Source of the DNA: a virus
Strand: one strand, 5' to 3'
Length of the DNA: 31,394 bases
Virus record (IMG/VR): IMGVR_UViG_3300049846_003025
Coordinates: 1-31,394 of that record
The notes below the pieces were generated by a model. It was not told the origin of the DNA, did not search any database, and was given only the letters and a program-made list of their open reading frames with translations. Shown one piece after another: positions 2,916 through 31,394 of this stretch (position 1 is the first letter of the stretch; each line of letters starts with the position of its first letter). The translations under genes were made by a program, and so were the position numbers.

Positions 2916-2924
2916 AGTTCACTC

Positions 2925-3353: not shown

Positions 3354-3401
3354 AGAAATTAATCCTTTTGATGATTGGAACAAGAAAAAATAGACGATCA
3401 A

Positions 3402-5253: not shown

Positions 5254-5296
5254 AGGTAATGGTTATTGATAGAAACAAGTTAATTTTAGCTTAATA

Positions 5297-5704
5297 CTAG
5301 GCATTCGCACGGGTGTTGAAGCTAATATATCGACTCGTAGAATCCCACTGCAACAGTCGAATGATAGTAGCTTCGCTTGCTCGTTTTTTGATTTCGTAAC
5401 CATCGTATTTAGATATCCCGCCGCGATCGCTATACTCGATTGAGTATTCCCCATCAACTCGCTGACTTTTTATTCCCAAGCTTGTATCGGTAGTCATTGC
5501 GGATTGTTTTGCACAGTTTGCCGATACCCAATCAAGGATCGCCGTCTGGACATCGCCAACAAAATCAGTGCCGTTTGTTGAGTCAAACAACTCCAGATCT
5601 TCGCACCGAGAACGAAGCAATGATCCTTCGGTGATTGCATCTGGGGACAATTTTAGGACAGTGATTAACTGGATATAATCTGTTTGTGTAAATGGTGCAG
5701 CCAT
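5297..5704 (-). CDS. Head-tail connector candidate
   Basis: 135 residues from ATG 5704, supported by TGAGG five bases upstream; an upstream start at 5746 would overlap the preceding gene. The sequence starts MAAPFTQTDYIQLITVLK and is mixed alpha/beta with LRSRCEDLELFDSTNGTDF and ILDWVSANCAKQ. Length and place, after the MuF-like gene and before the scaffold, suit a portal-ring adaptor or completion protein. No diagnostic motif is visible, so this is a positional assignment. Confidence 0.45.
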   Translation of the reverse strand: MAAPFTQTDYIQLITVLKLSPDAITEGSLLRSRCEDLELFDSTNGTDFVGDVQTAILDWVSANCAKQSAMTTDTSLGIKSQRVDGEYSIEYSDRGGISKYDGYEIKKRASEATIIRLLQWDSTSRYISFNTRANA

Positions 5705-5711
5705 AAAAACC

Positions 5712-6377
5712 TCAAAGACTAAAGGCGATTCGATCAAGGCGATCACTTAAATTCATTATCGGAGCAGTGTCTCCCATTTTGTAGTAAATAGAGCATCGAC
5801 AACGCCCCCCACATTGGCAAGCGTGACCGGGAACCACGACCATTTCAATCGGTAACCACTCCCCATTGGTCGAATAGCCAATGCAATCGGTACAATGTCG
5901 AGCCTGTGGGTCAAGATCTCGTTTTGCCAATTTCACCCCGGCGATCGCCCTCGACAATTGCTCACCCTTATAAAAACTTTTCCGGGTGGATGCCGCATAA
6001 CTACCCGCCCGACTCAATATCCGTTTTGGTGTTAGCTCACCCCTAGAAATTTGATTCGAGAATAAATGAAGGTATCTGTATTCTCTTCTGAGGCTTGCAC
6101 CGACAGCACCAAAGTGAGCGTTAGATACTCTATTCTTGCCACCAGCACCGAGCATGGTCATACGAATATGGGATTCCTTGATCGTTTCTGCCATTCGCTT
6201 TTCCCACTCGGACAGGCTGATTTTTTCGGATAACAATAATCGAGTATGCCCTTGCAACCGGACTTTCAATCGCGCTGATTCCGTATCGACTAATTTCAAA
6301 ACATCGGCACGGGAAACAAAACGCCCTGATTGAGTGTTCCGATATCTACCCGTTTTTGGATTGAAAGTAACCGACAT
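5712..6377 (-). CDS. MuF-like phage head morphogenesis protein
   Basis: 221 residues, with GAGGCTAAATA before ATG 6377. The C-terminal half carries the cysteine-rich signature of SPP1 gp7/MuF minor head proteins: HCTDC (Cys162, Cys165), then PIEMVVVPGHACQCGGRCRC (Cys187, 189, 193, 195). Related proteins show CxxC followed by HPNCRC. They bind portal and are carried in the head, sometimes leaving with DNA. The N-terminal part is helical and basic. The gene follows the portal gene by 36 bp, the usual place. No fused toxin domain is visible. Confidence 0.75.
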   Translation of the reverse strand: MSVTFNPKTGRYRNTQSGRFVSRADVLKLVDTESARLKVRLQGHTRLLLSEKISLSEWEKRMAETIKESHIRMTMLGAGGKNRVSNAHFGAVGASLRREYRYLHLFSNQISRGELTPKRILSRAGSYAASTRKSFYKGEQLSRAIAGVKLAKRDLDPQARHCTDCIGYSTNGEWLPIEMVVVPGHACQCGGRCRCSIYYKMGDTAPIMNLSDRLDRIAFSL

Positions 6378-6413
6378 TATTTAGCCTCAAGGAAAGGTCT
6401 TAATTCTCGGAAG

Positions 6414-7937: not shown

Positions 7938-7978
7938 TTATTGTTAGGGCGATCGCCATTAAAGTCCTTTCCATTCTA

Positions 7979-9481
7979 CTACCTACGGTAAGAACCGATG
8001 GCAGCGGATGGGAGTACCTTCGCCGCCTCTTCTACCCATACCCATGTCACAGCAAACGCCATAACAGTATCGTCATTACCTTGCACAGCTTGACGGGTAC
8101 TAGCCAAGAATTGAGATGCTTCTGATGCCCGTTTTGTCGTGCCGTCGCTAAACTCTGAACAAAACTCCCAATCGGGGGGATAAATCACATCTCCGTTTTC
8201 AATGGCGATCGCCACCCTGTCCGTGTTGACCCGTTTCGATACTGAAGAATGGGAGACTTTTTCAACCCGCAGCCCCGGCATTTTTGTTTGTAGATGCTCA
8301 ATTAAAACGATGCCTCCACTATTCGACTCAATGCCTACCAATTGTGGTCTGTAGGCTTTGATAATCTCGATAATCTTGGCTTCGTAATAGGCGTTGGTTT
8401 TTTTGTTTTCCCGATACTGATGGACAAGTTTATAAGGGTATTGAGTCAAATCAAAAACGAGTGCTGTGTAATAGTCTGCACCGCCAAAACTAGGATCTAT
8501 GCCCATCAAATAACGATGGCGTGGTTGTGGGGATTCCCATTGGGCGATCGCCTGTTTTTTGACGCAATCCATGTCGAACAATGACCCGGATTCCTTGGGA
8601 ATCTCCAGATCATATTCTCGTCCTGTCTGTTCCTTGGTAAGTTTTTCTCGGTTCCGAACTACGTCTAAATAATCAGGAATCAAGCAATACATTGGGTGTG
8701 ATTTCCAATGGAGTAAGACCTTGCACCAGCCAGAATTGTCAATCCAGTAATCAACGCCCGCCCCGTACTCACCCCGACCTTCCCTCACCCTAGCAATCTT
8801 CTCTTCGATATCAATATTTGGTGGGCAATCGCCAACAAAAATCTGCCACCACAGAGTCAACGTCCCACCTTTGGGCATTGTTGAAATCAAAACCCTTTTA
8901 GCGCGATCTCCCAACATACTTTGTGATGGCGTAGACGATGCATACAGGCTTTCGAGATTATGGATAAATCCAGCTTCATCAAAGATTAGGCGATCAACGG
9001 ACGGAACACCACGGGCGGCATTTTCTGTTGGGGGATAAAAATATTGATCACCGCCATTGACCGCTTTTAGCCGTTGTCCCGACTGATACTCCCACTCAAA
9101 ACCCCTGAACTGAGGCATATTCCTTGCCCGGTCAGCTAATTTTGATGACTCCTTTTGCCCAATACTAAAAACGACACCTGTATAGGCTGGATTCTGCAAA
9201 GCCTCATGCATGGCATAACACACAGCCGTCTCTGATGCCCCCAATTGTCGCGTCTTGAACCAACAGTGCTTAGGGTATTTTCCCAGTAGCTCACCCAGCA
9301 AAATCTGATAATCGTACAGCTTGAACGGCACAAATTCAGAACCCGACTTGATCTGGCATTGCGCCGCGAACTCCACAAAGTCCGTCGGAATATCGATCTT
9401 TTGCTCTATGCCCCGTCCAATTGTCGGAAGTTTTGCGATCGCCGGAGCCGCAAACCGTGCCAACGTTCTATTTACTTTCAC
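7979..9481 (-). CDS. terL: Terminase large subunit
   Basis: 500 residues from GTG 9481, with AAGGTTTTCA upstream. The ATPase part has a Walker A-like KTRQLGASET (residues 76-85), Walker B RLIFDEA (164-170) and coupling motif STMPKG (200-205). The RNase H-like nuclease part has MGIDPSFGG (Asp329), GIESN (Glu385) and GNDDTVMA (Asp470/471). It cuts concatemers and pumps DNA through the portal. The first 16 residues (MKVNRTLARFAAPAIA) are encoded by a 48-bp sequence repeated 730 bp upstream. So the natural overlap with the upstream coiled-coil gene has been broken by an insertion, and this N terminus may be an added segment. Confidence 0.93.
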   Translation of the reverse strand: MKVNRTLARFAAPAIAKLPTIGRGIEQKIDIPTDFVEFAAQCQIKSGSEFVPFKLYDYQILLGELLGKYPKHCWFKTRQLGASETAVCYAMHEALQNPAYTGVVFSIGQKESSKLADRARNMPQFRGFEWEYQSGQRLKAVNGGDQYFYPPTENAARGVPSVDRLIFDEAGFIHNLESLYASSTPSQSMLGDRAKRVLISTMPKGGTLTLWWQIFVGDCPPNIDIEEKIARVREGRGEYGAGVDYWIDNSGWCKVLLHWKSHPMYCLIPDYLDVVRNREKLTKEQTGREYDLEIPKESGSLFDMDCVKKQAIAQWESPQPRHRYLMGIDPSFGGADYYTALVFDLTQYPYKLVHQYRENKKTNAYYEAKIIEIIKAYRPQLVGIESNSGGIVLIEHLQTKMPGLRVEKVSHSSVSKRVNTDRVAIAIENGDVIYPPDWEFCSEFSDGTTKRASEASQFLASTRQAVQGNDDTVMAFAVTWVWVEEAAKVLPSAAIGSYRR

Positions 9482-9482
9482 T
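9435..9482. repeat. 48-bp direct repeat, copy A (terminase 5' end)
   Basis: It begins with a HIP1 octamer GCGATCGC and ends with TTTACTTTCACT, covering the first 16 terminase codons on the minus strand. Copy B at 10165-10212 differs at two positions (9449 C/A and 9464 C/T), so 46 of 48 bases match. The similarity stops sharply on both sides. The two copies bracket 682 bp of plus-strand genes. Confidence 0.93.
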
Positions 9483-9539
9483 GAAAACCTTATATACCAA
9501 CACTTCTAGGATAGCAGCAAAAAACTTTTAACTAAATGA

Positions 9540-9568
9540 TTGACATCCCTATACGGGTTTGTTATATT
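9540..9568 (+). promoter_or_regulatory. Consensus-like sigma-70 promoter
   Basis: TTGACA at 9540-9545 and TATATT at 9563-9568 are separated by exactly 17 bp. The 67-residue plus-strand gene starts 36 bp after the -10 box, with GAGG at 9592-9595 as its ribosome binding site. This is the best promoter match I saw in the window. It points away from the terminase, so the cassette probably has independent expression, perhaps also in the lysogen. Confidence 0.75.
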
Positions 9569-9603
9569 AAATACATACCACACAAGACAAGCGAGGCAAA
9601 CAG

Positions 9604-9807
9604 ATGACTACTCAAGAAAAAGAAATCAACTTCAACACGGGTATTGTTACAAAAGCCGGAAAATGGGTAGAAAATTCACTTACAGGGGAAGTCCTATCTG
9701 CTTACTACGTTATTGACGAAAGCACGAGATTCAAAACTGACATCGCCTTGCGCGGATTTGACTTTGATTCTTACAGCCTAATTGGTAAGTTATTAGCCAA
9801 CTCTTAA
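9604..9807 (+). CDS. Cassette protein 1, unknown, 67 residues
   Basis: MTTQEKEINFNTGIVTKAGK starts at ATG 9604 with GAGG eight bases upstream and a strong promoter before that. The rest (NSLTGEVLSAYYVIDESTRF, then ALRGFDFDSYSLIGKLLANS) looks like a small compact soluble protein without membrane segments or cysteines. I recognise no family. It lies inside the insertion bounded by the terminase-start repeats and runs against all virion genes. Possible roles are a moron product, an antitoxin-like or an immunity protein; nothing in the sequence decides among these. Confidence 0.7.
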   Translation: MTTQEKEINFNTGIVTKAGKWVENSLTGEVLSAYYVIDESTRFKTDIALRGFDFDSYSLIGKLLANS

Positions 9808-9861
9808 CTCTTCTTTTTTTTACAATTAAAATTGTCTATACTCATGACCAAAGGAGCCACT

Positions 9862-10056
9862 ATGAAGTTAAGAATTTCACCGGAAGAAGCAATCGTTTTG
9901 AGTCAGTTTATTGATTCACTTCGGGAGCAAAATCTCTCAACTAGACAAAAAGAAGAAAAATTAATTGAATACCTAAATACTCACTTTTCTAAGTGTGGCA
10001 CTGTCGCTGAAGGCGACTTTTTCATTATTAACAACGAAAATCTTTTAATTGACTGA
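9862..10056 (+). CDS. Cassette protein 2, unknown, 64 residues
   Basis: ATG 9862 is chosen because AAGGAG at 9851-9856 lies five bases upstream; in-frame starts at 9832 and 9844 lack this. The product starts MKLRISPEEAIVLSQFIDSL and continues with a charged helix (LREQNLSTRQKEEKLIEYLN), then GTVAEGDFFIINNENLLID. It looks mainly helical and soluble. It follows cassette protein 1 by 54 bp and is probably on the same transcript. Its 3' end overlaps, in antisense, the chimeric frame 9981-10211. No family recognised. Confidence 0.65.
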   Translation: MKLRISPEEAIVLSQFIDSLREQNLSTRQKEEKLIEYLNTHFSKCGTVAEGDFFIINNENLLID

Positions 10057-10211
10057 CTGGCATTCTCTTGTAGGTCTGTTACTCGGATTACTTGTTCCGG
10101 GGTTAGATTTCCGCCTTTGATTAGTTTGTTTACCTCTGCATAAATCAATAGTGAGCTTTCAAAGGCGATCGCCGGAGCAGCAAACCGTGCCAATGTTCTA
10201 TTTACTTTCAC
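9981..10211 (-). pseudogene. Chimeric frame carrying a second terminase start
   Basis: The 76-codon frame starts with the same GTG and 16 residues as the large terminase (MKVNRTLARFAAPAIA). It then continues FESSLLIYAEVNKLIKGGNL and TPEQVIRVTDLQE, unlike any part of the terminase, before ending inside the antisense of cassette protein 2. The GTG overlaps the end of the coiled-coil gene by 14 bp, the arrangement expected of the original gene junction. It may be the decapitated start of the old terminase, fused to insert DNA, or a small real protein. I favour a relic, but the helical middle part is protein-like. Confidence 0.45.
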
Positions 10212-10212
10212 T
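10165..10212. repeat. 48-bp direct repeat, copy B
   Basis: This copy matches 9435-9482 in 46 of 48 bases and also begins exactly at a HIP1 octamer. It retains the overlap with the upstream coiled-coil gene (whose stop TAG is at 10198-10200), so it probably marks the ancestral position of the terminase start. Copy A would then be the part moved or duplicated by the insertion. Confidence 0.93.
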
Positions 10213-10599
10213 TACTTTAGGATCTTTAAATTCAGTCTGTTCGTATTCAGAAACAAGATCTATCACTCTCGTTTTCCTAAGTTTTTTGTTTAAGCAATCT
10301 CGCATACTGTCGTTATCTAGCTCTATCAAATGAACATGTCTCTCGATCGCCTTATTCAAAGACTCTACTCTTCTAAGCTGTTCTCTCAAGCCTTTATTTT
10401 GCTCCTCTAACTCAACAATCCTTTTTCTTGTTTCCCAAGATGCCGCATTTTGCTCCTCTAATTCACAAATAGCATCACAAACATCTCTAATGAACGCCAA
10501 ATAAAAACAGACATTGATTTCATTTAGATTTTTCCCCTGTGGCTGCTTTTTAATCTGTTCATCAGTCCACAAAACAAGTCGAAGTAATATTTCATTCAT
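10198..10599 (-). CDS. Coiled-coil protein between the terminase genes
   Basis: 133 residues, MNEILLRLVLWTDEQIKKQ at the start, then a predicted coiled coil from about residue 45 to 105 (KRIVELEEQNKGLREQLRRV). It overlaps the small terminase gene by 8 bp at its start and the duplicated terminase start by 14 bp at its end, so these were one translationally coupled operon. The role is unknown. An accessory packaging protein is plausible from position, but a regulator is not excluded. The ELEEQNAASWETRKR / ELEEQNKGLREQLRR pair looks like a short internal repeat. Confidence 0.7.
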   Translation of the reverse strand: MNEILLRLVLWTDEQIKKQPQGKNLNEINVCFYLAFIRDVCDAICELEEQNAASWETRKRIVELEEQNKGLREQLRRVESLNKAIERHVHLIELDNDSMRDCLNKKLRKTRVIDLVSEYEQTEFKDPKVSESK

Positions 10600-11104
10600 T
10601 TTTGCAGTTCATCTCTTCTAGAAGTTGAGTCACCCCCAACGCCGTCCCCTCAGTTGACTGTGAAGTTTCGGCAAGACGACTTACTAATCCTAGACCCCTG
10701 AACGCTTGATCAAGGGTCATTTTTGCTTTTGGATCTTCCTTGACTGCCAACGATGCTTCATTTACCAACAGTACGACAACCTCAAAAATGGCAGATCCGA
10801 GACGCTTGTTTCGGTCACGGTAAGCCTCTACGTCCTTTTCCCACTTGTCCCGTTTCGTTTTCTCCAAATACTCTAGTCGTCGCCGCTCTTCTTCGGCATC
10901 CCATTCCCGTATCCGTTCTGTCCAGTTAAATTTCCATGCCCATTGGTCTAACGTCTTTCTGTTATTTGTAGGAACCTCTTCGTCTCTCTCGCATTCTACG
11001 TATCTCTCTAAAAGGGCTTTGATCGTTCGACTTGTCCCCATGTCCCGAAAATCCTGAAACGCTTGCCATGCGCGGTCTGTCTCATTTGGGAGGCGATCGC
11101 CCAT
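10592..11104 (-). CDS. terS: Terminase small subunit candidate
   Basis: 170 residues with AGGAGAAAGTT before ATG 11104. Residues about 40-70 read TLDQWAWKFNWTERIREWDA, a W-rich motif common in small terminase or HTH-like proteins next to large terminases, where it follows the DNA-binding helices. A charged helix follows (EERRRLEYLEKTKRDKWEKD), then a C-terminal oligomerisation-like region. Small terminase recognises the packaging site and loads the large subunit. It lies first in the virion operon. The family is divergent, so the assignment rests on this motif plus position. Confidence 0.68.
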   Translation of the reverse strand: MGDRLPNETDRAWQAFQDFRDMGTSRTIKALLERYVECERDEEVPTNNRKTLDQWAWKFNWTERIREWDAEEERRRLEYLEKTKRDKWEKDVEAYRDRNKRLGSAIFEVVVLLVNEASLAVKEDPKAKMTLDQAFRGLGLVSRLAETSQSTEGTALGVTQLLEEMNCKNE

Positions 11105-11432
11105 AACTTTCTCCTAAATCTCTAAAACGCAACAATAACAATGATTCTAGTCTATCTATAGAGAAAAAAGGAAATTTCCCTCTAAAATTGACTTGGCAAC
11201 TCATCAAGGATTAAACCAAAAGATGCTGAGAGTATATCTAAGCCCGAATAGTTTGTATTTATCGGAGTCCTCCTCTCACCCAACAATAGGGGAATTAATG
11301 TCGGAAGGAAAATTAGTCGCAACATTTACCAACCCACCGCGTATCGCACGAATCCAATCAACAATTTTTCACCTGCTTTTCCCTGCCAAGCACCCGCCAT
11401 CCCGACAAATCAATAATTGCTGCGATAACAAC
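11105..11432. other. 328-bp stretch without a convincing gene
   Basis: This holds the leader of the small terminase gene (on the minus strand a Shine-Dalgarno AGGAGA and AT-rich TATAGAT and TAGAAT blocks that could be a -10). It also has a plus-strand open frame from TTG 11193 to 11450, whose translation is low in protein-like character and has no ribosome binding site. A plus-strand terminator lies 15 bp beyond that frame, so a short plus transcript is possible. Confidence 0.4.
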
Positions 11433-11861
11433 TCAGGGATAGATCTCTGATGAACCTGAAAACCCCTGCTCAATGGCAGGTTTTTTTGTGCCTTGGGGTT
11501 GAGATTGCTGTGGCGTTGGCGATGGTTGGCGATGAGTCAAAAGCCAAGTTAGTACACCAATGCACACCCAAGGAATAAACGTCTGAAGCCACCCAAAGAT
11601 CAATGCATACCCATGTTCCGACAATTTATCAGAGCGTTGCTGATATTCCGAGACGAACCGACTGGCATCACGGGCTTCCATCCGCAAATCGTCAATCTGC
11701 GACTGCATCTCGGCTATCTTCCTTTCCAATTCCGACACATTACCAGCTAGGTAGCTGAAACGCTCTTCAAGCCGTGCCAAATCCTTGCCGTGCTGATCCA
11801 CGGTAGTCGCCATGTATCGGGCGATCGCCTTCGTTTCGTTGTCCCGGTCTGAACTGAACAT
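11433..11861 (-). CDS. Coiled-coil protein with C-terminal membrane anchor
   Basis: 142 residues if started at ATG 11861 (MFSSDRDNETKAIARYM); an earlier in-frame start at 11915 adds 18 unlikely residues. A predicted coiled coil spans about residues 25-75 (ARLEERFSYLAGNVSELERK), followed by one membrane segment (FGWLQTFIPWVCIGVLTWLL) and a Pro/Gln-rich tail. A similar plan occurs in the protein at 14602-14979. Roles such as lysis accessory or membrane tether are possible; nothing proves either. The start region overlaps another frame for 95 bp (see 11767-11961), and the coding signal seems to change frame there. Confidence 0.6.
   Translation of the reverse strand: MFSSDRDNETKAIARYMATTVDQHGKDLARLEERFSYLAGNVSELERKIAEMQSQIDDLRMEARDASRFVSEYQQRSDKLSEHGYALIFGWLQTFIPWVCIGVLTWLLTHRQPSPTPQQSQPQGTKKPAIEQGFSGSSEIYP
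11465..11487 (+). terminator. Plus-strand terminator inside the end of a minus-strand gene
   Basis: CCTGC / GCAGG with loop TCAATG is followed by seven T. It lies within the last 20 codons of the minus-strand coiled-coil membrane gene, so it only makes sense for plus-strand RNA arriving from 11105-11450. It may end a small or antisense RNA. Confidence 0.55.
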
Positions 11862-11961
11862 CAGAAGTTTTCCATTCCCCAAAGAAACTTGCGGGATCAA
11901 AGTTATCGGAGTCAATATGCTCCAGAATTTGTTTGGTCGTAAACGCTTTGCGGTCGTCCAT
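11767..11961 (-). CDS. Overlapping upstream frame of the coiled-coil membrane gene
   Basis: The frame starts at ATG 11961 with MDDRKAFTTKQILEHIDSDN and FDPASFFGEWKTSD, which look like real protein. After about residue 35 it becomes Gly/Arg-rich and unlike protein, just where the +1 frame (SSDRDNETKAIARY) becomes convincing. Either the two are one gene with a +1 frameshift near 11855-11865, or a short protein is translated with a coupled start at 11861. I cannot separate these. Confidence 0.45.
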   Translation of the reverse strand: MDDRKAFTTKQILEHIDSDNFDPASFFGEWKTSDVQFRPGQRNEGDRPIHGDYRGSARQGFGTA

Positions 11962-12079
11962 TGGTAATGCCCACTCTACTATTTAATCCTAATCTGGGAG
12001 ATTAATGCTCTCAGTGAATTTACGCACCAAGAATCAAAACTTTGATCTCCGTATTGCTGATAGAAGTAGACGCTCATGC

Positions 12080-12095
12080 TGTGATCTGAGTCACA
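12080..12095. promoter_or_regulatory. CRP-type operator TGTGATCTGAGTCACA
   Basis: A perfect TGTGA-N6-TCACA palindrome, the recognition sequence of the cAMP receptor protein in E. coli and of SYCRP1-type proteins in cyanobacteria. It lies in the 281-bp gap between the leftward coiled-coil membrane gene and the rightward dCTP deaminase-like gene, 148 bp from the latter's start. AT-rich DNA (TTTATTTTATGCT) follows it and could contain a -10 box. This suggests that host cAMP influences at least one of the two flanking transcripts. Confidence 0.6.
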
Positions 12096-12218
12096 ACCCC
12101 TAGATTTATTTTATGCTTGTCTAGGAAAATTGTGTTTTTGTTTGCGTTTAAAAAACGAAAAGCGGAGTGAACAATCCCAGTGGTAAGATAAATTCATTCT
12201 CTCAACTAGACCCTTTTG

Positions 12219-12240
12219 TCCCCGCAATGGGGATTTTTTT
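12219..12240 (+). terminator. Terminator-like hairpin directly before the deaminase start
   Basis: TCCCC / GGGGA with loop GCAAT is followed by seven T, and the ATG comes two bases later at 12243. The only Shine-Dalgarno-like bases (GGGGA) are in the hairpin arm. It may be an attenuator, a translational switch that hides the ribosome site, or the end of an upstream transcript. Confidence 0.6.
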
Positions 12241-12242
12241 GT

Positions 12243-12812
12243 ATGATCCTGAACGATGTACAGACACAGCAACGGGCAATGATTTTGCCCTATGAACAAA
12301 GATTGCAAAATGGAGAAAGCTACGACCTAACTCTTGGTAAAACCATCAAAATCCGGCAGTTAATGCCGTGGTGGAAAATCGAGTCATGGGACATCTTCAC
12401 CCAACCCGACGGTTCAAAGTTTATAGCTAGAAAGGCTTCTTGGGAAACCATTGATATCGGCGGTACATCCCAATCAAAGCCATATTGGGTTAAGCCCGGT
12501 ATGCCATTCCTTGCCTGTAGCGAGCAATGGCTAAAGATGCCGAATGATCTAGTCGGAATTGGGTTTTTAAAATCCAGTCGGGCAAGAGAATTACTGGAAC
12601 ATCTACAAGCCGTTTTTGTTGATGCCACATTTGAAGGTGTCCTGACCTTTGAGTTTGTGAATATGGACGTTCAGCCCAAACCCATCTGGCAAGGTCAGCG
12701 AGTCATGCAGTTAGCGTTTGCAAAGACAACCCCGGCGATCGCTCCCTATAAGGAAAAAGGACACTACATGCTTGACGGTGACACTCAGGAATCAAAGGGG
12801 TATTTTGCATGA
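12243..12812 (+). CDS. dcd: dCTP deaminase / dUTPase-family protein
   Basis: 189 residues. The start MILNDVQ matches the MILSD opening of dCTP deaminases and fixes the ATG at 12243. Further family marks are SYDLTLG (about residue 28), LKSSRAREL (RSS-type motif), DATFEGVLTFEFVN (equivalent of the VDPGW.G..TLE.N block with the catalytic Glu) and QGQRVMQLAF. These trimeric enzymes make dUMP or dUTP from dCTP, or hydrolyse dUTP. Here it would tune the dNTP pool during phage replication. Lys replaces the usual Arg before SS. It overlaps the next gene by 4 bp (ATGA). Confidence 0.8.
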   Translation: MILNDVQTQQRAMILPYEQRLQNGESYDLTLGKTIKIRQLMPWWKIESWDIFTQPDGSKFIARKASWETIDIGGTSQSKPYWVKPGMPFLACSEQWLKMPNDLVGIGFLKSSRARELLEHLQAVFVDATFEGVLTFEFVNMDVQPKPIWQGQRVMQLAFAKTTPAIAPYKEKGHYMLDGDTQESKGYFA

Positions 12813-13117
12813 TTGAGCAGTATTTTTCTTTCGATACTGAGATCAACGATCAGGGGGGTGTTCAGTCGGAAAGCAAAACGGCATTTCACTTGATTCCGGC
12901 GATCACCCTATTCAAAGTCGCTGAGATTATGCACGTCGGAACAACAAAATATGGTGAAGATAACTGGCGTAAAATTCCGATCCGCGTTCACCTCGGTCGC
13001 GCCATTCAGCACATTTACGCATACCTTTTGAATGACCGCACCGAGGATCATTTGTCCCATGCATTGTGTCGGTTGTTTTTTGCTGCTGAGTTACACTACG
13101 GATCGAAGCCAGATTAA
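12809..13117 (+). CDS. dATP/dGTP diphosphohydrolase-like protein (DUF5664 type)
   Basis: 102 residues. The core FHLIPAITLFKVAEIMHVGT, TKYGEDNWRKIP and DHLSHALCRLFFAAEL follows the pattern of the phage N-terminal domain family DUF5664 (L.P...L...A.....G..KYG..NW, then H..HA..N..FL). Members are associated with dATP/dGTP diphosphohydrolases of phages that alter nucleotide pools. The overlap ATGA with the deaminase gene indicates coupled translation and a joint role in nucleotide supply. Only the single domain is present, so activity is not certain. A terminator follows 23 bp later. Confidence 0.68.
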   Translation: MIEQYFSFDTEINDQGGVQSESKTAFHLIPAITLFKVAEIMHVGTTKYGEDNWRKIPIRVHLGRAIQHIYAYLLNDRTEDHLSHALCRLFFAAELHYGSKPD

Positions 13118-15443: not shown

Positions 15444-15740
15444 TTACCAACCCAACTGCTTGAGTACAATCGCTTCTGTTGCATCCGTGACGATGATGGC
15501 GGTGATACGCTCAATGTTGGAGTTAATCTCCATCGCCCGGTATGCGGCATGAAGCACATCACCACGGGCTACCGTTTCATAGCGTTCTTCAAAATCCACA
15601 ATACCCGTCATCTTAACTACGATAGGGTTTACGGTGTCACCGAGAGCGGCAATCAGTTGAGCCATTTCTTCAATCTGTGCAGCGGGAACAGTGGGAGCAG
15701 TAGCGGGGGTGATGGATTTGATATCGAGTAACTTGTGCAT
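15444..15740 (-). CDS. ParB/Srx-like N-terminal domain protein, short
   Basis: 98 residues. VNPIVVKMTG, then FEERYETVARGDVLHAAYRA and ITAIIVTDATEAIVLKQLGW, follow the pattern of ParB N-terminal domains (PIVVR..., YEVIAGHRRYLAA, A.V..). The catalytic GxxRxxA loop is altered to GDVLHAA, so the CTPase and nuclease residues are probably lost. No DNA-binding HTH domain follows. Short cyanobacterial proteins of this type are known as ParB-like; their function is unclear. The preceding N terminus TPATAPTVPAAQIEEMAQLI is an Ala-rich linker and helix. Confidence 0.58.
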   Translation of the reverse strand: MHKLLDIKSITPATAPTVPAAQIEEMAQLIAALGDTVNPIVVKMTGIVDFEERYETVARGDVLHAAYRAMEINSNIERITAIIVTDATEAIVLKQLGW

Positions 15741-17226: not shown

Positions 17227-17703
17227 CTACCTCGCAACCAAATCATAAAAAGGTTTGTCTGAAATTCGCACCGTCACCCGCTTCTCTGTTGAAGAAGTCT
17301 TGATAAACCGATGAATGGGAATGATCGTCTCTTCAGACATTAATCCATTTCGCAAAACAACCGTTGTTCCCATCATGGATAGTTTGTCGTCAGCGATCAC
17401 TCCGGCTTTCACTAAGGCATCGTTAATATGCTTTGTTCCAGCAGAAACATTGTCAGCGTCCATTGTGAAAGGCACATACCAAATATATTCTGCGTACCAC
17501 TTGGTTAATGGTTTTTTGGGCTTGTCAAGAGAGCAAATAGCCGAAAGTATTTTTGTTTCCCAGTGTTTTTTGCAGCTATTTCGAGTAATAGGAGTTTGAA
17601 CCATTAATCGATTCAAAAAAGGAAAGTTTTTTATCTTACTAGGCTTCCCTGTTCTCCCCTTGATAGTAGTCGGCGTGCCAATCGTAAATTCAAGCAAATA
17701 CAT
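17227..17703 (-). CDS. RusA-like Holliday junction resolvase
   Basis: 158 residues. The core PFTMDADNVSAGTKHINDAL, VKAGVIADDKLSM matches the RusA signature: D-x-D-N (Asp82, Asp84, Asn85) followed some 20 residues on by a DD pair (Asp105, Asp106), which together bind catalytic metal. The preceding KKHWETKILSAI and following IPIHRF are also where RusA proteins have basic residues. RusA cuts four-way junctions and is widespread in prophages for resolving replication and recombination products before packaging. It lies within the early operon; the next gene starts 2 bp after its stop. Confidence 0.72.
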   Translation of the reverse strand: MYLLEFTIGTPTTIKGRTGKPSKIKNFPFLNRLMVQTPITRNSCKKHWETKILSAICSLDKPKKPLTKWYAEYIWYVPFTMDADNVSAGTKHINDALVKAGVIADDKLSMMGTTVVLRNGLMSEETIIPIHRFIKTSSTEKRVTVRISDKPFYDLVAR

Positions 17704-18677: not shown

Positions 18678-20072
18678 TCATTTAATAGACCATGTTTTAT
18701 CACAAGATTTGCATCGATAACGAACTGCTCCAGATGATGTTTTTCCATTTGTGCGCACATCTTTAGAACCGCATTCTGGGCAGTTTTTTGTGTGCATATG
18801 TGCGACGTGTGCCTCTGTGCATTCCAGTGATAGCAAGGATTCTAGCCGATCAACTGTGCTTTGTAGCTCTGTGGCGACAGGCTTTTCGCTTCCACTTTGC
18901 CACCCCGCCAAATTTGCCTTAGAAGGCTGTGTTTTTTTCCATTCACTGAGGTCTGGAACTTCGGCGGGAACAGCGGGGGAATCAGAGCTTAAGTCGCCAA
19001 CAAAAGCAGGGTATTTGACTGTCGAAATGTAACGGCAAACGTTAAGAGCTTGCTCGTAGGCATAAGTCCCTTTTTTTGATTTACTTAAGTTTTGCTCAGC
19101 ATAACTTTTGGCTTTGTTGGCAATCATTACCCATGTTAATTGTTCACGAATTTGCCCCTCACCTTCACAGCCCATCGCCTTAACTTCAGTGCCTTGAACA
19201 AGGGGGATTAAACGAATTTTGACTTTTCGGGCTTCACGCAACAGCTTAAAGGTAAATTCCTTTAGTCCGTCCGTGCCTGCCCATGCGTTAAATTCGTCAA
19301 GAATCACTACTATTTCAGGCTCGCTATCACCCACGAAATTTTGGTCATCATCAATTTGATAGCGACGGTTCATTTCGTGATACAAAGCCACCAAAAAAGC
19401 ACAGGCGGAAATGTTGTATTTCCCAGTTAAAATCTCGGCAAAACCTAGGTGCTTGTACTGTTCGTAATCCTCAACCGTTCCGTAGTTTCGCCCCCATGCC
19501 ACTACTAAATCGGCACTGGTAAATCCACCTTTTTTCCAGTGGGGAGAAACCGCTACAACGATGCCGTCAAAGCAACTCGCTAAATGCTCGGCAAGCCATG
19601 ATTTTCCACCACCTGTTTTACCAGCGATGCCGATATGAGGGAACGCATCGCGGTTTGTGCGGAACTCAGTCCAGTCAAAAGGGGTTACACCCTGTTGACT
19701 TTCGACATCTCCCCAGTCACTAGCCGTTTCGCCATTGCCCTCAGTTTGAGGCACTGGGGTGGCTTGCGGTGGTTGCTGGGGATAAACATGGGCTACCGCG
19801 TCTCTTGCTGTCGCCTCTGTCCAAACACGCTTGTGGTGGGCTTCGTATTTGAGAATTTGGCGATGGTCGTAGATGACCTTGGCGGAGATCGCCGCAGAAC
19901 TTAACGAAGCCACATTCAAAAGTAGTTTGCGCGTCCAGTGCTGGTTGCCATAACTGAAAACTTGAAGAGCGATCGCTACCCCAACAAATCCCCAAGAAAT
20001 GATTTTTGGCTTGTCAAAATCAATGTCATTTCGAGGATTAACAAGGATTTCCCTAGGCAAAGAAACCATCAA
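18678..20072 (-). CDS. Membrane-anchored HerA/FtsK-type ATPase with zinc ribbon
   Basis: 464 residues. Two membrane segments are predicted at about 23-41 and 48-66. The motor domain has Walker A GKTGGGKS (151-158) and Walker B VVILDEF (255-261), followed by VKIRLIPLVQGTEVKAMG (sensor-like region). The C terminus carries a four-cysteine zinc ribbon, CPEC (431/434) and CKSC (454/457), of the kind at the start of IS1-type InsA proteins. The layout resembles DNA translocases of conjugation, filamentous phages or membrane-containing phages. Its start overlaps the small membrane gene by 20 bp. A role in DNA movement across the membrane is inferred. Confidence 0.72.
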   Translation of the reverse strand: MMVSLPREILVNPRNDIDFDKPKIISWGFVGVAIALQVFSYGNQHWTRKLLLNVASLSSAAISAKVIYDHRQILKYEAHHKRVWTEATARDAVAHVYPQQPPQATPVPQTEGNGETASDWGDVESQQGVTPFDWTEFRTNRDAFPHIGIAGKTGGGKSWLAEHLASCFDGIVVAVSPHWKKGGFTSADLVVAWGRNYGTVEDYEQYKHLGFAEILTGKYNISACAFLVALYHEMNRRYQIDDDQNFVGDSEPEIVVILDEFNAWAGTDGLKEFTFKLLREARKVKIRLIPLVQGTEVKAMGCEGEGQIREQLTWVMIANKAKSYAEQNLSKSKKGTYAYEQALNVCRYISTVKYPAFVGDLSSDSPAVPAEVPDLSEWKKTQPSKANLAGWQSGSEKPVATELQSTVDRLESLLSLECTEAHVAHMHTKNCPECGSKDVRTNGKTSSGAVRYRCKSCDKTWSIK

Positions 20073-24914: not shown

Positions 24915-26780
24915 CTATCGATTAGGCTCAATACAAAGCACATAGCCTTGTGTAAAAGTAACTGTGTTTGCGGCATTTGCCTCATTCCATTGAAACGTCA
25001 CTGTTGTAGGCTGTTCGACTGTTGTATTGATCACAGCAACACCGCCGGATCCGGGATCGGCAGCAACGCTTGCCCCAAATTGAATCAAGCTATCAATTCT
25101 TGCCGTCCCACTAACTCCAGTGCTTCGGCAAGTTAAAGTAACTTTTAATTCAAAAGGTACGTTCGTCATAGTGACTGAGGCTGGAGTAACCAGAGTTTGA
25201 ACCGTGACTCCTGCGTATTTAATCCGAAAACTTCCAAAGGCAGCAGCGTTGTTTCGTTGGGAGATGAACCCTTTGATTGTAATCTCTTCGCACTTCCCAA
25301 CCTCTAAATAATTAGCTCCATGCTCTACGGTGGAGATCGCCCCACTCTCTGTCACGGTATTTGCGATGGTCAAATCAGAAGTCCGAATGTTTTCAGACAT
25401 GACCACGCCGCGCCGCTTCAGGAATTGGCTGAATTGAAGACCATTCCCAACTAGCTCAAATGTGCCTTGCTCGACAACGGCAAGGGGGGTGGGCTGTGAG
25501 GTTAATTTTATTGGTGCTGTGCCGGGTGCTGTTCCACCAGCATTGAAAACCAAAGAGCCGATCCCTGTGTCGCCAGCTTTGTTGATCTTTGTAGCAAGCA
25601 AAGCATTCAACCCATTGACGTTTCCAGAATCAATCGTTCCAGCGACATTTTGAGTTTTACCGTATTCAACCGTGATTAAGTCACCTGACAATGGGGCGGT
25701 GACAAACCGAAAAGTACCAGTGGCGGCGTTCAACTCAGTCCAATCTTCAGTTGTCCCTTGGGTCTGCAATTGCCCGTTTAGATAGACCTTGAGCTTCCCA
25801 CTGGGATAACTCCCAAGAGAAACCATGAAATCAGTATTTGAATCGTTAACCGAACCGATCAACGTGCCATACGTATCGGATACGCCGCCTGATTGGTCAA
25901 TCTGGATAGAAGAAAATGCATTGGCGATCAATGCGCCCGTTTCCGCTTCGGTGTAATATCGCCCATCATGAGTATGGAGGGTCGTATCGCCACCGTCGGT
26001 TAAGTCCGTGGCGTTTGCATCCGAAATATTATTGACTTCCGCCCCGACTTCAATCCCGTCTAACTTTGTTTCATCGGCAGTGGTGAAAGATGCTGTTGTG
26101 TTCGCTAGTACAGAAGAATACCCTTGTACCGTCACCCCAATGGTTCCGGGTTGTAACGCCGAATCCGCTTTTGCCCCTTGAGAGGCTGTCGCAAAATCCC
26201 CAACATTAGCAGCCGCTGCCGACCCTAGTGCTGGTTTATTTAGGATTAAAGCGTTTCCAGCGATGGCATTCCAATCTGCGTTTACATTGACTTCCGCACC
26301 AGCGGCAATGCCATCTAACTTTGCTTCATCAGCCGCAGTAAAAGAGGCGGTCGTATTTGTCAATACAACAGAATACCCCTGTACCGTCACGCCAATATTT
26401 CCGGGCTGAAGTGCTGAGTCTGCTTTTGCCCCTTGTGCTGCTGTCGCAAAATCCCCTGTGTTGGAAAAAGCCGCTGTCCCAAATATAGGCTTATTTAAAA
26501 TCAGAGCATTGCCTGAGACCGCATTCCAATCGGCATTAACATTGGGTTCAGCCCCTGCAACTATTCCAGCTAATTTTGTTTTTTCTGTTGGCAGGAATAA
26601 TCCAGCGTTCAACTCAGTTGCCGCTGGAATTGTTGCATCGGTTCCGGTGCTAGAAACTACGATCCCATCCGCAGGACTGGCAATATAGCTTAAATTCGTT
26701 TTCCCGCCGCCGCCGCCAGTGGTGATCGTAACCTGAATATTTTCTTCGTTATCGGTAATAGTTGCCGTGATCACACTCAT
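24915..26780 (-). CDS. Long tail fibre protein with tandem repeats
   Basis: 621 residues. The N-terminal section contains a glycine stretch, then GLFLPTEKTKLAGIVAGAEP NV. It is followed by two full 85-residue repeats (NADWNAVSGNALILNKP, FATAAQGAKADSALQPG, GYSVVLTNTTASFTAADE, KLDGIAAGAEVN) typical of fibre stalks. Then come a TLHTHDGRYYTEAETG segment of tail-collar type and a beta-rich part (GKLKVYLNGQLQTQGTTEDW, GTFRFVTAPLSGDLITVEYG). The C terminus may be a trimeric beta domain. It overlaps the preceding gene as ATGA. It probably forms a trimeric fibre. Confidence 0.82.
   Translation of the reverse strand: MSVITATITDNEENIQVTITTGGGGGKTNLSYIASPADGIVVSSTGTDATIPAATELNAGLFLPTEKTKLAGIVAGAEPNVNADWNAVSGNALILNKPIFGTAAFSNTGDFATAAQGAKADSALQPGNIGVTVQGYSVVLTNTTASFTAADEAKLDGIAAGAEVNVNADWNAIAGNALILNKPALGSAAAANVGDFATASQGAKADSALQPGTIGVTVQGYSSVLANTTASFTTADETKLDGIEVGAEVNNISDANATDLTDGGDTTLHTHDGRYYTEAETGALIANAFSSIQIDQSGGVSDTYGTLIGSVNDSNTDFMVSLGSYPSGKLKVYLNGQLQTQGTTEDWTELNAATGTFRFVTAPLSGDLITVEYGKTQNVAGTIDSGNVNGLNALLATKINKAGDTGIGSLVFNAGGTAPGTAPIKLTSQPTPLAVVEQGTFELVGNGLQFSQFLKRRGVVMSENIRTSDLTIANTVTESGAISTVEHGANYLEVGKCEEITIKGFISQRNNAAAFGSFRIKYAGVTVQTLVTPASVTMTNVPFELKVTLTCRSTGVSGTARIDSLIQFGASVAADPGSGGVAVINTTVEQPTTVTFQWNEANAANTVTFTQGYVLCIEPNR
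26028..26537. repeat. Two 255-bp tandem repeats in the fibre gene
   Basis: Residues 82-166 and 167-251 of the fibre are the same 85-residue unit (NADWNA[VI] to GAEVN), at 26283-26537 and 26028-26282 on the minus strand. A shorter degenerate copy lies before residue 82 (KTKLAGIVAGAEPNV). Copies differ at scattered codons, so the duplication is not very recent; variable copy number could change fibre length. Confidence 0.75.
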
Positions 26781-27501: not shown

Positions 27502-27617
27502 CACTTTTTCTTCTCCTTCGGCTCAGGCTTTTGCCCATACTCAGGACGGATCGTATTGTTTCCCGGCAATGATTTTCCATCGCCGCCCATCGCGTAACTT
27601 GCTCGTATAAAACTCAT
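27501..27617 (-). CDS. Very small protein, 38 residues
   Basis: ATG 27617 follows GGAG by eight bases and opens MSFIRASYAMGGDGKSLPGN NTI..., ending in a charged tail (KPEPKEKKK). The good ribosome binding site and the one-base overlap with the next gene favour a real product, the first in the fibre operon. The Lys/Pro/Glu-rich end is unstructured. No family is recognised. The start lies 32 bp from the palindromic operator shared with the RHH gene. Confidence 0.55.
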   Translation of the reverse strand: MSFIRASYAMGGDGKSLPGNNTIRPEYGQKPEPKEKKK

Positions 27618-27648
27618 TGGTTTTTCTCCGTTAACATTATATTGCTGT

Positions 27649-27662
27649 ATGATATCATGATA
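27649..27662. promoter_or_regulatory. Overlapping palindromes, RHH operator candidate
   Basis: ATGATATCAT (27649-27658) and TATCATGATA (27653-27662) are both perfect 10-bp palindromes and overlap by 6 bp. They lie between the divergent RHH gene (start 27683) and fibre operon (start 27617). Arc/CopG-type proteins bind such closely spaced half-sites as pairs of dimers, so this may control both transcripts. Confidence 0.55.
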
Positions 27663-27682
27663 ACATAAGTTCAGTGAAAGCC

Positions 27683-27835
27683 ATGAAACAAAAAACGACA
27701 ACAATCCGTATTCCGGAAGCCTTGCTAGATGAGGTTGACAGAAAAGCCGCTGCTCTGGGCTATTCTCGAAACCAGTACATTGTCAACCTGCTGAAAACTG
27801 CAAACCTTAAGTTATCTGCCAAGGGGAGACGCTGA
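27683..27835 (+). CDS. Ribbon-helix-helix regulator, 50 residues
   Basis: ATG 27683 opens MKQKTTTIRIPEALLDEVDR KAAALGYSRNQYIVNLLKTA and ends LSAKGRR. It is a textbook Arc/MetJ-type ribbon-helix-helix: strand KTTTIRI, helix PEALLDEVDRKAAALG, turn YS, helix RNQYIVNLLK. Dimers bind DNA through the strand. It diverges from the fibre operon, with palindromes between, and is followed by a terminator. It may repress the fibre operon or itself; as an antitoxin it would lack a toxin partner here. Confidence 0.85.
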   Translation: MKQKTTTIRIPEALLDEVDRKAAALGYSRNQYIVNLLKTANLKLSAKGRR

Positions 27836-27855
27836 CAGTGCGACTGCTATATACT

Positions 27856-27895
27856 AAAAGCACCCCGTTAGATTTGCCGTCTAGGGGTGCTTTTA
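27856..27895. terminator. Bidirectional terminator after the RHH gene
   Basis: AAAAGCACCCC pairs with GGGGTGCTTTT across an 18-base loop. Both sides carry A/T runs, so it can end plus-strand RNA from the RHH gene, and leftward RNA if any arrives. It separates the RHH gene from the replication region. Confidence 0.75.
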
Positions 27896-27975
27896 GTTCA
27901 AATTATTCATGGGATTACTCCCACTACTTGTATGAAACCGATAAAAGGAATCGGATCTAACGAAGGAATCTCGAT

Positions 27976-28335
27976 ATGACACCAATTTTAGACCAAAATA
28001 ACGACGATATCAACCTTGAGCAGTATCTCTGCCTAGAGAGCAAGTCCAATGGGTTTGGTGAGAAGCCAGCGGTCAAGCCTCGGTTCCCGTGGATCGTTTT
28101 TCCGTCGTTTGTCCTTAATGACGATGGAATGGTGGTAGCCTACGGATATTTTGTCTTCCGAGGCAAAAATATAAAAAAGGCATTGCGAGTATTCAAAAAG
28201 GAAAATCCCAGAGCTTACCCCACGGTTAAAGAAATGGGGTATTACTGGCTTGTCGATAATGCTGAAGAACTAAAAGCAACAATTGAATATATCCGCGTTG
28301 TGGTTGATAGCCTGATCTTGGGCGAGGAGAATTAA
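27976..28335 (+). CDS. Hypothetical protein upstream of the replication gene, 119 residues
   Basis: ATG 27976 has AAGGA eight bases upstream. The sequence starts MTPILDQNNDDINLEQYLCL, then RFPWIVFPSFVLNDDGMVVA, YGYFVFRGKNIKKALRVFKK and ELKATIEYIRVVVDSLILGE. It is mixed alpha/beta with no known motif. It lies 1 bp before the start of the large replication gene and is almost certainly on the same transcript, so it may regulate or assist replication. Confidence 0.72.
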   Translation: MTPILDQNNDDINLEQYLCLESKSNGFGEKPAVKPRFPWIVFPSFVLNDDGMVVAYGYFVFRGKNIKKALRVFKKENPRAYPTVKEMGYYWLVDNAEELKATIEYIRVVVDSLILGEEN

Positions 28336-28336
28336 G

Positions 28337-31300
28337 ATGCAAACAAAAGCAAAAAACAATCTTCGCAATGCCGAGCTGCAGGCGATCGCCACGCTTAAAA
28401 CCCTAGGGTTCCGAGAAAATGAGCCATTCATGATTGGTGTTGCCAACTACGCCTTACAGGTAGAGATCAAAGAAGATTGCCTGCTGCTGTGGAAAACAAA
28501 CTGCCCAACAGTGCGGGGCGGAAATTGGACTATAGGGCATCCTATCATTGGGGGGTTTGATCATCTAAGACGTATCGGGGAAAGCGGGAAAAATATTTTC
28601 ATTTTCCCAAATAAGCTCGTCAACGGGATGAGCGATCGCCATGCAACAGAATTTAATACCGTATTCTTCGAGATTGACCCACCCAAGGGCAGCAATATCA
28701 CGGAACAATTGATCGCCAATCGGGAACGCATCAATGCAATTCAGGCACGGGGCTTGCGGTTATCCGCTCAAATCTATTCAGGGAATAAGTCGGATCACAA
28801 CTATTTCCGGTTGTCCTGTGGTGTAAGTTCCGATGTCCACTTAAATTTGCAACGAAAAGCGGCGATCGCCTTTGCGTCTGACCCGGCAATCGTAACCATC
28901 AGCCGTAAGATGCGTTTCCCATGGGTTCCCCGTCGCGTAGGAGATTCTATTCGGGAATGTAAGACAAGGCTCACGGACGCTGTTTACACGCCTTCTGAAC
29001 TTGAACAGTGGCTTGATACGCTGATCAAGGAGCGATACGGTGTACAACCGCCGGAACACATTTCAGAAAATCGATTCAAGGAATACAAGCGCAATTATTT
29101 TGCAGGGCTTGATGCCGAAGAAGTCTGCCATACACTCAACGCTGATGAATGGGAATTTGAGCCAAAACAAGATGACATTGATCTTTCTGACCTCCCCACT
29201 GAGATTTTGCACCCTATCGCCTTAAAGGCTGTGCAAACAATTCCTGAGTCGATCCCCGGTGAAGGCAGCTATGAGGAAATTTACCGTCGGATGTGCGGTG
29301 GACTTAAGCATATCTTTGGTGAGGAGATCGCCGTCCAAATAGCCGAACAACACAGCCCATTGCGAGAAGCCTCCAGTGTTGTGCGATCGCTGAAAGCCTA
29401 TAACGCTGCTTCATTATTCAAGGTAGCCCGTGAGCATGGGGGATTCGTTTGGGACAAAGAAGATGCAAAACGGTTACAGGATTATTTTCATGAAGACATT
29501 CTGCGGCTTTATGACGGATTCAAAGGCAAGGCATTGTCTATCGAATTAGCCCCATTTCGTAAAAAATTTCAGTTACTCGGATGCCCCGATCTTTACTGGA
29601 AAGAAGAGTGCAACGCGATCGCCGCTGAGATCAATGTGTCCCCTGTTTATGGTGCTGATGCAAATTGGTGGAAAGATTATGAGGAAAAGCGTGTCGGACT
29701 GGGGGGATATCGTGGTGAAGGCGAGATCAAAAATGCACCTGAATGGATACGCCAAAACCAGATTATTCCTTGGCTCAATCGCCTAAAAGAGCAAGGAAAA
29801 CGACTTTTTAGCTATGAGCAGGAAGTCAACAATCGCCAACGCATTACACCGGGCGAATTGGTTCATCACAATGGCACAGGTTACATCGTTGAATTTACCT
29901 CGGAACAAGAACGGTTTCGATTGGTCAAGGATGCGCCATCAATGGGCTACAAATGGGTTGTTGACATTTCTGGTACTGGCACGGGCAAAACTCACAATCT
30001 ATTGAGGTTTGGGGAAAAAGGATCAAGGGTTGTTCTGTTCCTGCCAAGCCATCGCAATCCCCATGTGCCGGAGTTGAAAGATTCATTTTTTGAGATGCCG
30101 ACCCGTCACTTGGGAATGTATCGCCACAGCGACAATACGATTCGCAGACATCCAGAAAAGGAAGGTCAGTTGACGATTGAGGATGCCAATTGCCACAAGG
30201 CGAACGAGTTTTTGGAGGCGGCGATCACTGGACGCAATTTAGAGATTGATAGTCCTTGCTTTACCTGTCAATTTCAGGACACCTGCGGTAAAGACCAACA
30301 AAATCGCCCCGCAGGGAGTGGCTTTTTGCGTCATCGATTTCACGCTTTTCAACAACCAAGAGTCAGAGGGCATTTATCACAGTTTGGCGGTGTACCAGAA
30401 GCATTACTAAAAGATCGGATTGCTATAGTTGACGAAGCGTTTTCCCAGATTCAGTCATTTAAAACGATGACCATCAGTATTGATGATGCATTCAAAAAAT
30501 TACGGTTTCTTGAGGCGTTAGACCCCGCAAAGGCTCACCTCATCAAGCCGTTTTTGACCCACATGGAAAAACTAAACAATGAATGCAAGTCGCCTTTCGG
30601 GGTTAGTCACGATGAATTATTTGAAAATGCCCCAAATTCAGACAAATGCCGTTGGGACGCAAAGGCATGGGCGAAGGGAGTGCTAACCGCTGTTGTTGAT
30701 GGCAAAATCAACTGGGATTACGCCAATGACACAGCCTTAGCTGAAGATGCTGGTCAGTCTACCCCATACGAACCCCTAAGCGACATGATCAAGATTTGGT
30801 GTGGCGACAAAGGCAGTATCTCGGTGAAGGATGGGATTGTAACTATCACAATGCCTGACTCTAGTCACATCAATATGCTCAAGAAATTTGAGTCACGATT
30901 GCTGATGGATGCAACGCCAAACTTAAAGCTGTTGGCTCAATCGGCAGGCTGCCAAGAATCTGAAATTTTGGTGATCACCCGTCCGATGCCCGACAACAGC
31001 CGATTGAGCATTACCGCCATCGAAACCCCCGGCACGGGAAGCAGACAAAACCTAAATGAGTCAAAACAGGCACAAGACCGGGTAATGTCTTTGATCGAAA
31101 AAATTAAAGTAGAGCGCGACGCAAACGCACGGGTTATCGGACTCAAGAACTGTCCTATCCCTCATGACGGATACTGGGGCAATCATAGCCGTGGAGATAA
31201 TAGCAATAGCGGCGTTCGTACCCTGATTGCCTACGGACTGCCATACCCCAATCTTGAACAGTCACGGGCTGAATGGAGGGCGATCGCCGGAACACTTGAT

Positions 31301-31394
31301 GGCTTTGAAGCTTACTACGGTCACAAGGTTGCCGCCGAAATTATTCAGGTAGCAGGACGACAACGGGCGCATCGGTACGATGGCGAGTTCAACT
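28337..31394 (+). CDS. Primase-helicase replication protein, CyRepA1-like (partial)
   Basis: ATG 28337, with GAGGAG eight bases upstream, opens a frame that stays open to the right edge (more than 1019 residues, 3' end missing). N-terminal primase-like marks are FFEID (110-114), SGNKSDH (148-154) and DPAIVTISRKMRFPW (from 182), similar to archaeo-eukaryotic primases of plasmid replication proteins. The helicase part has Walker A GTGTGKT (546-552), a DEAF box (699-702), MDATPN, and motif VI QVAGRQRAHR (from 1004). Four cysteines (619, 641, 644, 650) lie between Walker A and DEAF. It resembles cyanobacterial CyRepA1 plasmid replication proteins in plan; the name is provisional. Confidence 0.8.
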   Translation, partial: MQTKAKNNLRNAELQAIATLKTLGFRENEPFMIGVANYALQVEIKEDCLLLWKTNCPTVRGGNWTIGHPIIGGFDHLRRIGESGKNIFIFPNKLVNGMSDRHATEFNTVFFEIDPPKGSNITEQLIANRERINAIQARGLRLSAQIYSGNKSDHNYFRLSCGVSSDVHLNLQRKAAIAFASDPAIVTISRKMRFPWVPRRVGDSIRECKTRLTDAVYTPSELEQWLDTLIKERYGVQPPEHISENRFKEYKRNYFAGLDAEEVCHTLNADEWEFEPKQDDIDLSDLPTEILHPIALKAVQTIPESIPGEGSYEEIYRRMCGGLKHIFGEEIAVQIAEQHSPLREASSVVRSLKAYNAASLFKVAREHGGFVWDKEDAKRLQDYFHEDILRLYDGFKGKALSIELAPFRKKFQLLGCPDLYWKEECNAIAAEINVSPVYGADANWWKDYEEKRVGLGGYRGEGEIKNAPEWIRQNQIIPWLNRLKEQGKRLFSYEQEVNNRQRITPGELVHHNGTGYIVEFTSEQERFRLVKDAPSMGYKWVVDISGTGTGKTHNLLRFGEKGSRVVLFLPSHRNPHVPELKDSFFEMPTRHLGMYRHSDNTIRRHPEKEGQLTIEDANCHKANEFLEAAITGRNLEIDSPCFTCQFQDTCGKDQQNRPAGSGFLRHRFHAFQQPRVRGHLSQFGGVPEALLKDRIAIVDEAFSQIQSFKTMTISIDDAFKKLRFLEALDPAKAHLIKPFLTHMEKLNNECKSPFGVSHDELFENAPNSDKCRWDAKAWAKGVLTAVVDGKINWDYANDTALAEDAGQSTPYEPLSDMIKIWCGDKGSISVKDGIVTITMPDSSHINMLKKFESRLLMDATPNLKLLAQSAGCQESEILVITRPMPDNSRLSITAIETPGTGSRQNLNESKQAQDRVMSLIEKIKVERDANARVIGLKNCPIPHDGYWGNHSRGDNSNSGVRTLIAYGLPYPNLEQSRAEWRAIAGTLDGFEAYYGHKVAAEIIQVAGRQRAHRYDGEFN

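Follow-up and report, generated by a model that had tools for sequence, protein, structure and literature searches.

A CyRepX-type primase-helicase gene beside head and tail genes suggests a plasmid-like replicon in a temperate cyanophage

Results

Gene content and boundaries of the viral contig

The window analyzed here is the whole of virus record IMGVR_UViG_3300049846_003025, a stretch of 31,394 bp. The following phage-related genes were recognized outside its right-hand replication block.

1595-2284, minus strand: major tail protein (phrog_1407, 4e-8)
2326-2667, plus strand: Cro/CI-type transcriptional repressor-like protein
3402-4337, minus strand: major capsid protein (phrog_212, 5e-69)
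6414-7937, minus strand: portal protein (phrog_145, 9e-58)
7979-9481, minus strand: terminase large subunit, TerL
17227-17703, minus strand: RusA-like Holliday junction resolvase (phrog_1682, 8e-8)
18678-20072, minus strand: HerA/FtsK-like ATPase with a C-terminal zinc ribbon (weak HerA/FtsK-type matches)

The window also encodes a MuF-like protein and repressor-like proteins, and no DNA polymerase was recognized in it. With its terminase, portal, major capsid and tail genes, the part outside the replication block is a tailed phage. Its TerL and major capsid protein have their nearest counterparts in cyanophages, namely Cylindrospermopsis phage Cr-LKS4 (39%) and Microcystis phage Mwe-JY26 (48%), respectively. 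The repressor-like gene at 2326-2667 is consistent with a temperate phage. A separate genome contig (G283:C75) has capsid, portal and tail genes in common with the window, but no CyRepX gene (see below).

Two further genes had been put forward in the original prediction as signs of extrachromosomal lysogeny. The proposed membrane translocase (18678-20072) gave no better than weak HerA/FtsK-type profile matches, but this ATPase does have a clear homologue on a circular 31.5-kb plasmid of Annamia dubia (E 1e-51), its best plasmid match. The proposed ParB-like fragment (15444-15740) matched no Pfam or PHROG family and is unsupported. Neither ParA nor ParB was recognized in the window, whose right end is cut where partition genes often sit in CyRepX plasmids.

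No terminal repeats were found in the 31,394 bp. Positions 1-12602 have a 99.3-99.4% identical counterpart in another contig, L023, which runs on leftward into a tape-measure-like gene; since the replication gene is in turn open at the right, both ends of the window are cut off. A comparison of the exact DNA of the right end with other contigs revealed no overlap, and no independent contig spanning 12.6-31.4 kb was found, L023 alone covering the left end. As predicted, no integrase was visible: profiles of tyrosine and serine recombinases (PF00589 and PF00239) had no match in the window. This lack carries little weight, because both contig ends are missing.

Several minor features of the phage region were also seen. 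The portal open reading frame (ORF) is broken in L023 (4664-6149) into a 356-aa product and a second ORF, and the interruption falls at the gap between two blocks aligned with the window. A 48-bp direct repeat (9435-9482 and 10165-10212; 95.8% identical), common to the window and L023, brackets about 680 bp without a long ORF; this stretch separates the terminase start from the ORF upstream of it. It matched no Rfam family and has the appearance of an insertion by which the beginning of the terminase gene was duplicated. Adjoining genes for dCTP deaminase-like and dATP/dGTP diphosphohydrolase-like proteins occupy 12216-13117 on the strand opposite the head genes, and a tail-fibre-like gene contains a 255-bp tandem duplication (26031-26544; 73% matches).

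HIP1 sites and the host

The cyanobacterial palindrome HIP1 (GCGATCGC) occurs at 36 sites in the window versus 0.34 expected, and this abundance points to a HIP1-rich cyanobacterium as the likely host. Sites cluster in the genes for head and packaging functions and in the replication gene, and are few at 24.8-28.4 kb. The overall density, 11.5 per 10 kb, resembles that of CyRepX plasmids from HIP1-rich hosts (7-13.5 per 10 kb in four plasmids, though 0 in two others) and is higher than in four cyanophages isolated from fresh or brackish water (0, 1, 4 and 0 per 10 kb, 50 kb each). Such a density would fit a long stay of the phage in its host, of which it is no proof; as proof of lysogeny, HIP1 density is weakened by Nodularia phage 2AV2, which has 20 sites in 50 kb.

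A fused primase-helicase at the right end

The right end of the window, beyond tail-fibre genes of the opposite strand, has the following organization.

27683-27835, plus strand: 50-aa ribbon-helix-helix (RHH) protein of the CopG/Arc type (RHH_1, E 1e-4; phrog_4738, 5e-8)
27853-27897, no strand assigned: perfect 14-bp inverted repeat with a 17-nt loop (folding z -5.4 versus shuffles)
27976-28335, plus strand: 119-aa ORF directly upstream of the replication gene, its stop nearly touching the next start
28337-31394, plus strand: candidate replication protein (Rep), a fusion of an AEP primase and an SF2 helicase, 1019 aa, C-terminus cut by the contig end

The predicted protein of more than 1000 residues is indeed present as an ORF (28337-31393, plus strand; 1019 aa) that is open at its 3' end. 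Pfam and PHROG searches with it recognized no family. The two domains proposed for it are nevertheless apparent from its motifs.

The N-terminal half, about residues 1-380, carries the three AEP motifs: ExD at 112-114 (E112, D114, within FEID), SxH at 152-154 (S152, H154) and RxMR at 190-193 (R190, R193). All are invariant in the five aligned AEP-type members (5/5). A profile of these members matched the PrimPol AEP structure 6zp9 (1.3e-17) and, at 6e-4, the plasmid 'Replication protein B' 3h25. By motif and homology, this half is assigned to the AEP primases, as had been suggested.

The SF2 helicase occupies about residues 500-1015, with Walker A at 548-551, DE at 699-700 and Q..GRxR at 1004-1010. 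Four cysteines (C619, C641, C644 and C650) follow Walker A and precede the DE box (Walker B), and the catalytic and cysteine positions are kept in 35-36 of 37 aligned sequences. XPD and DinG helicases carry an iron-sulphur cluster at a four-cysteine site between Walker A and Walker B. Fold searches with a predicted model likewise placed XPD and DinG on top (Z 12.4 to 11.8), with SecA and RecQ folds less than 1 Z away; this fold assignment comes from a full-length model of low confidence, with a mean pLDDT of 46 and values mostly of 65-89 in the helicase core. The SF2 assignment of the original prediction thus holds, and the fold together with the four cysteines indicates a helicase of the XPD/DinG type.

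Relatives of the Rep candidate

The protein had been likened to CyRepA1 (Slr7037, pSYSA), a primase-helicase of about the same length that is encoded by a cyanobacterial plasmid [PMC9978351]. Membership in that family was ruled out: the BLASTP E-value is 0.78, and DUF3854, which belongs to CyRepA1, was not found in the window protein. The broader idea of a plasmid-type cyanobacterial Rep stands, with a different relative. CyRepX1 (Slr6031) and CyRepX2 (Slr6090), the Reps of Synechocystis 6803 plasmid pSYSX, were identified through their ability to replicate autonomously when placed in Synechococcus 7942 [PMC10899382]; we matched them to the two loci on pSYSX from their position and order. The Rep candidate aligned with CyRepX1 (BLASTP E 5e-21) and CyRepX2 (6e-20) in the SF2 helicase half, which, judged by this similarity, belongs with the two proteins. 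The four cysteines and the C-terminal motifs are shared as well. Unlike the window protein, CyRepX1 starts with a cysteine motif and has no AEP motifs, and neither CyRepX gene sits in a phage.

A tblastn search for relatives of the Rep candidate gave matches to 85 plasmid records of cyanobacteria and to none of the 50,697 phage records. The closest full-length relative is the 1218-aa BAZ71355.1 of Fischerella sp. NIES-4106 plasmid5, a circular 24.5-kb plasmid; both halves match, with 33% identity over residues 73-368 (AEP) and 26% over 537-1013 (helicase). Unlike the window, plasmid5 has ParA-like and integrase genes and no annotated phage structural genes. Identity of the candidate to any Rep is only about 25-28%. 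A maximum-likelihood tree built on the helicase places it next to a Euhalothece plasmid Rep, within a weak group with CyRepX1 and CyRepX2 (support 51), so that it is no recent capture from any of the plasmids sampled.

CyRepX-type matches were present in 35 of 386 cyanobacterial genomes. Most of the fetched regions lay on contigs the size of plasmids, and in many cases a gene for ParA, ParB, ParM or a relaxase stood no more than 10 kb away. Integrase genes are present on many CyRepX plasmids. A few homologues among these regions lie in contigs of 3.7-6.9 Mb, and therefore chromosomal copies exist. A set of best matches confined to primases of chromosomal prophages, the result that would have refuted a phage-plasmid, was accordingly not what we observed.

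Across the family, the N-terminal modules differ while the helicase stays the same. An AEP module is found in the window, Fischerella, Gloeocapsa and Cylindrospermopsis members, a PriCT-2 module in the Picosynechococcus and Calothrix Reps, a Prim-Pol (PF09250) module in the Rep of a virus record described below, and a cysteine-motif start in CyRepX1 and others.

A circular virus record with a CyRepX-type Rep

When the window Rep alone served as the pattern for scanning viral and genome contigs, nothing matched, and an alignment-based scan of viral contigs identified no viral relative. With the plasmid Reps as queries, the viral contigs yielded a single record, IMGVR_UViG_3300013027_000041 (L027; 14,220 bp), which has an exact 55-bp terminal repeat and is therefore circular. 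It encodes a CyRepX-type Rep with Prim-Pol PF09250, an RHH-like gene upstream of it, ParA, large and small terminase subunits and a 1300-aa tape-measure protein. Thus, a CyRepX-type Rep, phage packaging and tail genes and a partition gene share one small circle. Portal and capsid genes were not recognized in its 14,220 bp, and L027 could represent a satellite or a small remnant of a phage-plasmid. It resembles the window in combining a CyRepX-type helicase and a primase domain, an upstream RHH-like gene, a terminase and a tail gene on one element, but differs in its primase module, its ParA and its terminase family.

The region upstream of Rep

Iterons had been expected near 27840-27975. None were seen there, the only repeat being the perfect 14-bp inverted repeat at 27853-27897, a candidate terminator-like or regulatory/origin element; nor were iterons or tandem repeats found elsewhere near Rep. 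The RHH protein is a possible regulator of copy number or lysogeny. Several plasmid CyRepX genes also have RHH genes upstream, a pairing that is suggestive only, as the RHH profile search did not recover such a gene at every CyRepX locus. The 119-aa ORF had no Pfam or PHROG match, and no plasmid homologue of it was found. The junction between the fibre genes and Rep showed neither a tRNA nor an integrase, and no repeat there clearly resembled an att site.

Discussion

Packaging, capsid and tail genes occur in the window together with a plasmid replication gene, two of the features expected of a phage-plasmid, with an assembly caveat at the junction. A primase-helicase beside head and tail genes, with plasmid Reps as its relatives, makes a phage-plasmid the best reading, and the kinship with proven Synechocystis plasmid Reps suggests that the virus probably persists in its host as a free-standing DNA element and not within the chromosome. 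We therefore favor, with some confidence, a temperate tailed cyanophage that has its own plasmid-type replicon and whose lysogeny is extrachromosomal. The original prediction of a phage-plasmid is retained on these grounds, although the support it drew from CyRepA1 and ParB has fallen away.

In such an episomal prophage, the Rep candidate would act as the replication initiator. Its XPD/DinG-like helicase would open an origin in or next to 27505-28337, the AEP domain would lay primers, and a host polymerase would elongate them. The small upstream RHH protein may set copy number, and the ParA/ParB partition genes typical of the neighborhood of plasmid CyRepX genes would sit in the missing right part.

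Episomal persistence is supported by the occurrence of homologues on plasmid records and in no phage record, by the relationship of the helicase to the autonomously replicating CyRepX1 and CyRepX2, by a best full-length relative on a circular plasmid, by the predominance of plasmid-sized contigs in the family, and by L027, where a Rep of this family occurs together with ParA and with terminase and tape-measure genes. The phage genes, HIP1 density, the repressor-like gene and the lack of a recombinase in the window agree with the wider reading of a temperate phage that has its own replicon. This reading is weakened by the truncated ends, by the lack of a terminal repeat and of recognized ParA/ParB, by the low Rep identity and poorly supported tree position, by homologues in chromosome-size contigs, by the integrases of many CyRepX plasmids, and by the isolated phage in which HIP1 also reaches 4 sites per 10 kb.

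Other explanations assign the Rep gene a different role or origin. Phages often have their own primase-helicase, and the gene could serve lytic replication only, any lysogeny proceeding by chromosomal integration with the integrase encoded in the missing sequence. The relationship of the AEP domain to the PrimPol AEP structure and the loss of both contig ends agree with this possibility; however, relatives are abundant on plasmids and absent from isolated phages, L027 joins a CyRepX-type Rep to ParA, and the window has no integrase, so that we regard a purely lytic role as unlikely. Because Rep lies at the contig edge beyond oppositely transcribed tail-fibre genes, the phage and plasmid parts could also have distinct sources, either as a prophage within a plasmid or as a chimeric join.

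In the former case, the block from 27505 to the end would be cyanobacterial plasmid DNA flanking a plasmid-integrated prophage, and Rep would not be the phage's own. Plasmid Reps of the CyRepX type are common enough for this, but the junction lacks the tRNA, integrase or att-like repeat sought there, a prophage ending at this point would separate the fibre genes from the tail module, and L027 has such a Rep and phage genes on one small circle; we judge this explanation rather improbable. In the latter case, metagenome assembly would have joined a phage contig to a plasmid contig. Mis-assembly at the junction between the fibre genes and Rep is conceivable because no second contig crosses it, and none spans 12.6-31.4 kb, but G+C is even across the junction and HIP1 sites are frequent in the head/packaging region as well as in the Rep gene, despite being few at 24.8-28.4 kb. 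A chimera is accordingly the least probable of these explanations, and a very improbable one.

The phage-plasmid proposed here resembles Microcystis phage Mic1 and phage-plasmids of the P1/N15 type in being a tailed phage with proposed or known extrachromosomal persistence, but those elements have other replication and partition genes. HIP1 was absent from the 50 kb of Mic1 that were checked. Mic1 was proposed to be extrachromosomal with ParABS [PMC7156551], and there are also proposals of cyanobacterial phage-plasmids with different genes in Microcystis NIES-298 (P1) [PMC12510456] and from glacier viromes [PMC4490671]. Our literature search on CyRepX returned PMC10899382 only, in which the word 'phage' is absent. 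Phage-plasmids are thus already known, and one driven by a CyRepX-type Rep appears to be unreported.

Freshwater and filamentous cyanobacteria have many plasmids and few described temperate phages. If prophages of these organisms do replicate by CyRepX-type Reps, this would explain lysogeny without integration, and would join research on plasmid Reps and on cyanophages, which have so far been separate. Rep and its upstream region would constitute a directly testable replicon. More tentatively, CyRepX-type replicons may be common to cyanobacterial plasmids and to unrecognized phage-plasmids or small satellite-like circles, with one XPD/DinG-like helicase and interchangeable primase modules (AEP, Prim-Pol, PriCT-2, zinc or other) driving both ordinary plasmids and episomal phages.

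Cyanobacterial plasmids bearing terminase genes were considered as a missing link between the two groups and ruled out, as their large replication proteins are not CyRepX. Seven such small plasmids (13.8-26.8 kb; AP018286, NC_014535, AP018305, NC_019679, NZ_CP026691, AP018215 and AP018306; L016-L022) have a terminase about 30% identical to that of the window. Protelomerase or telomere resolvase genes are annotated in three of them and two of the records are linear; these plasmids could be linear phage-plasmids or packaging satellites.
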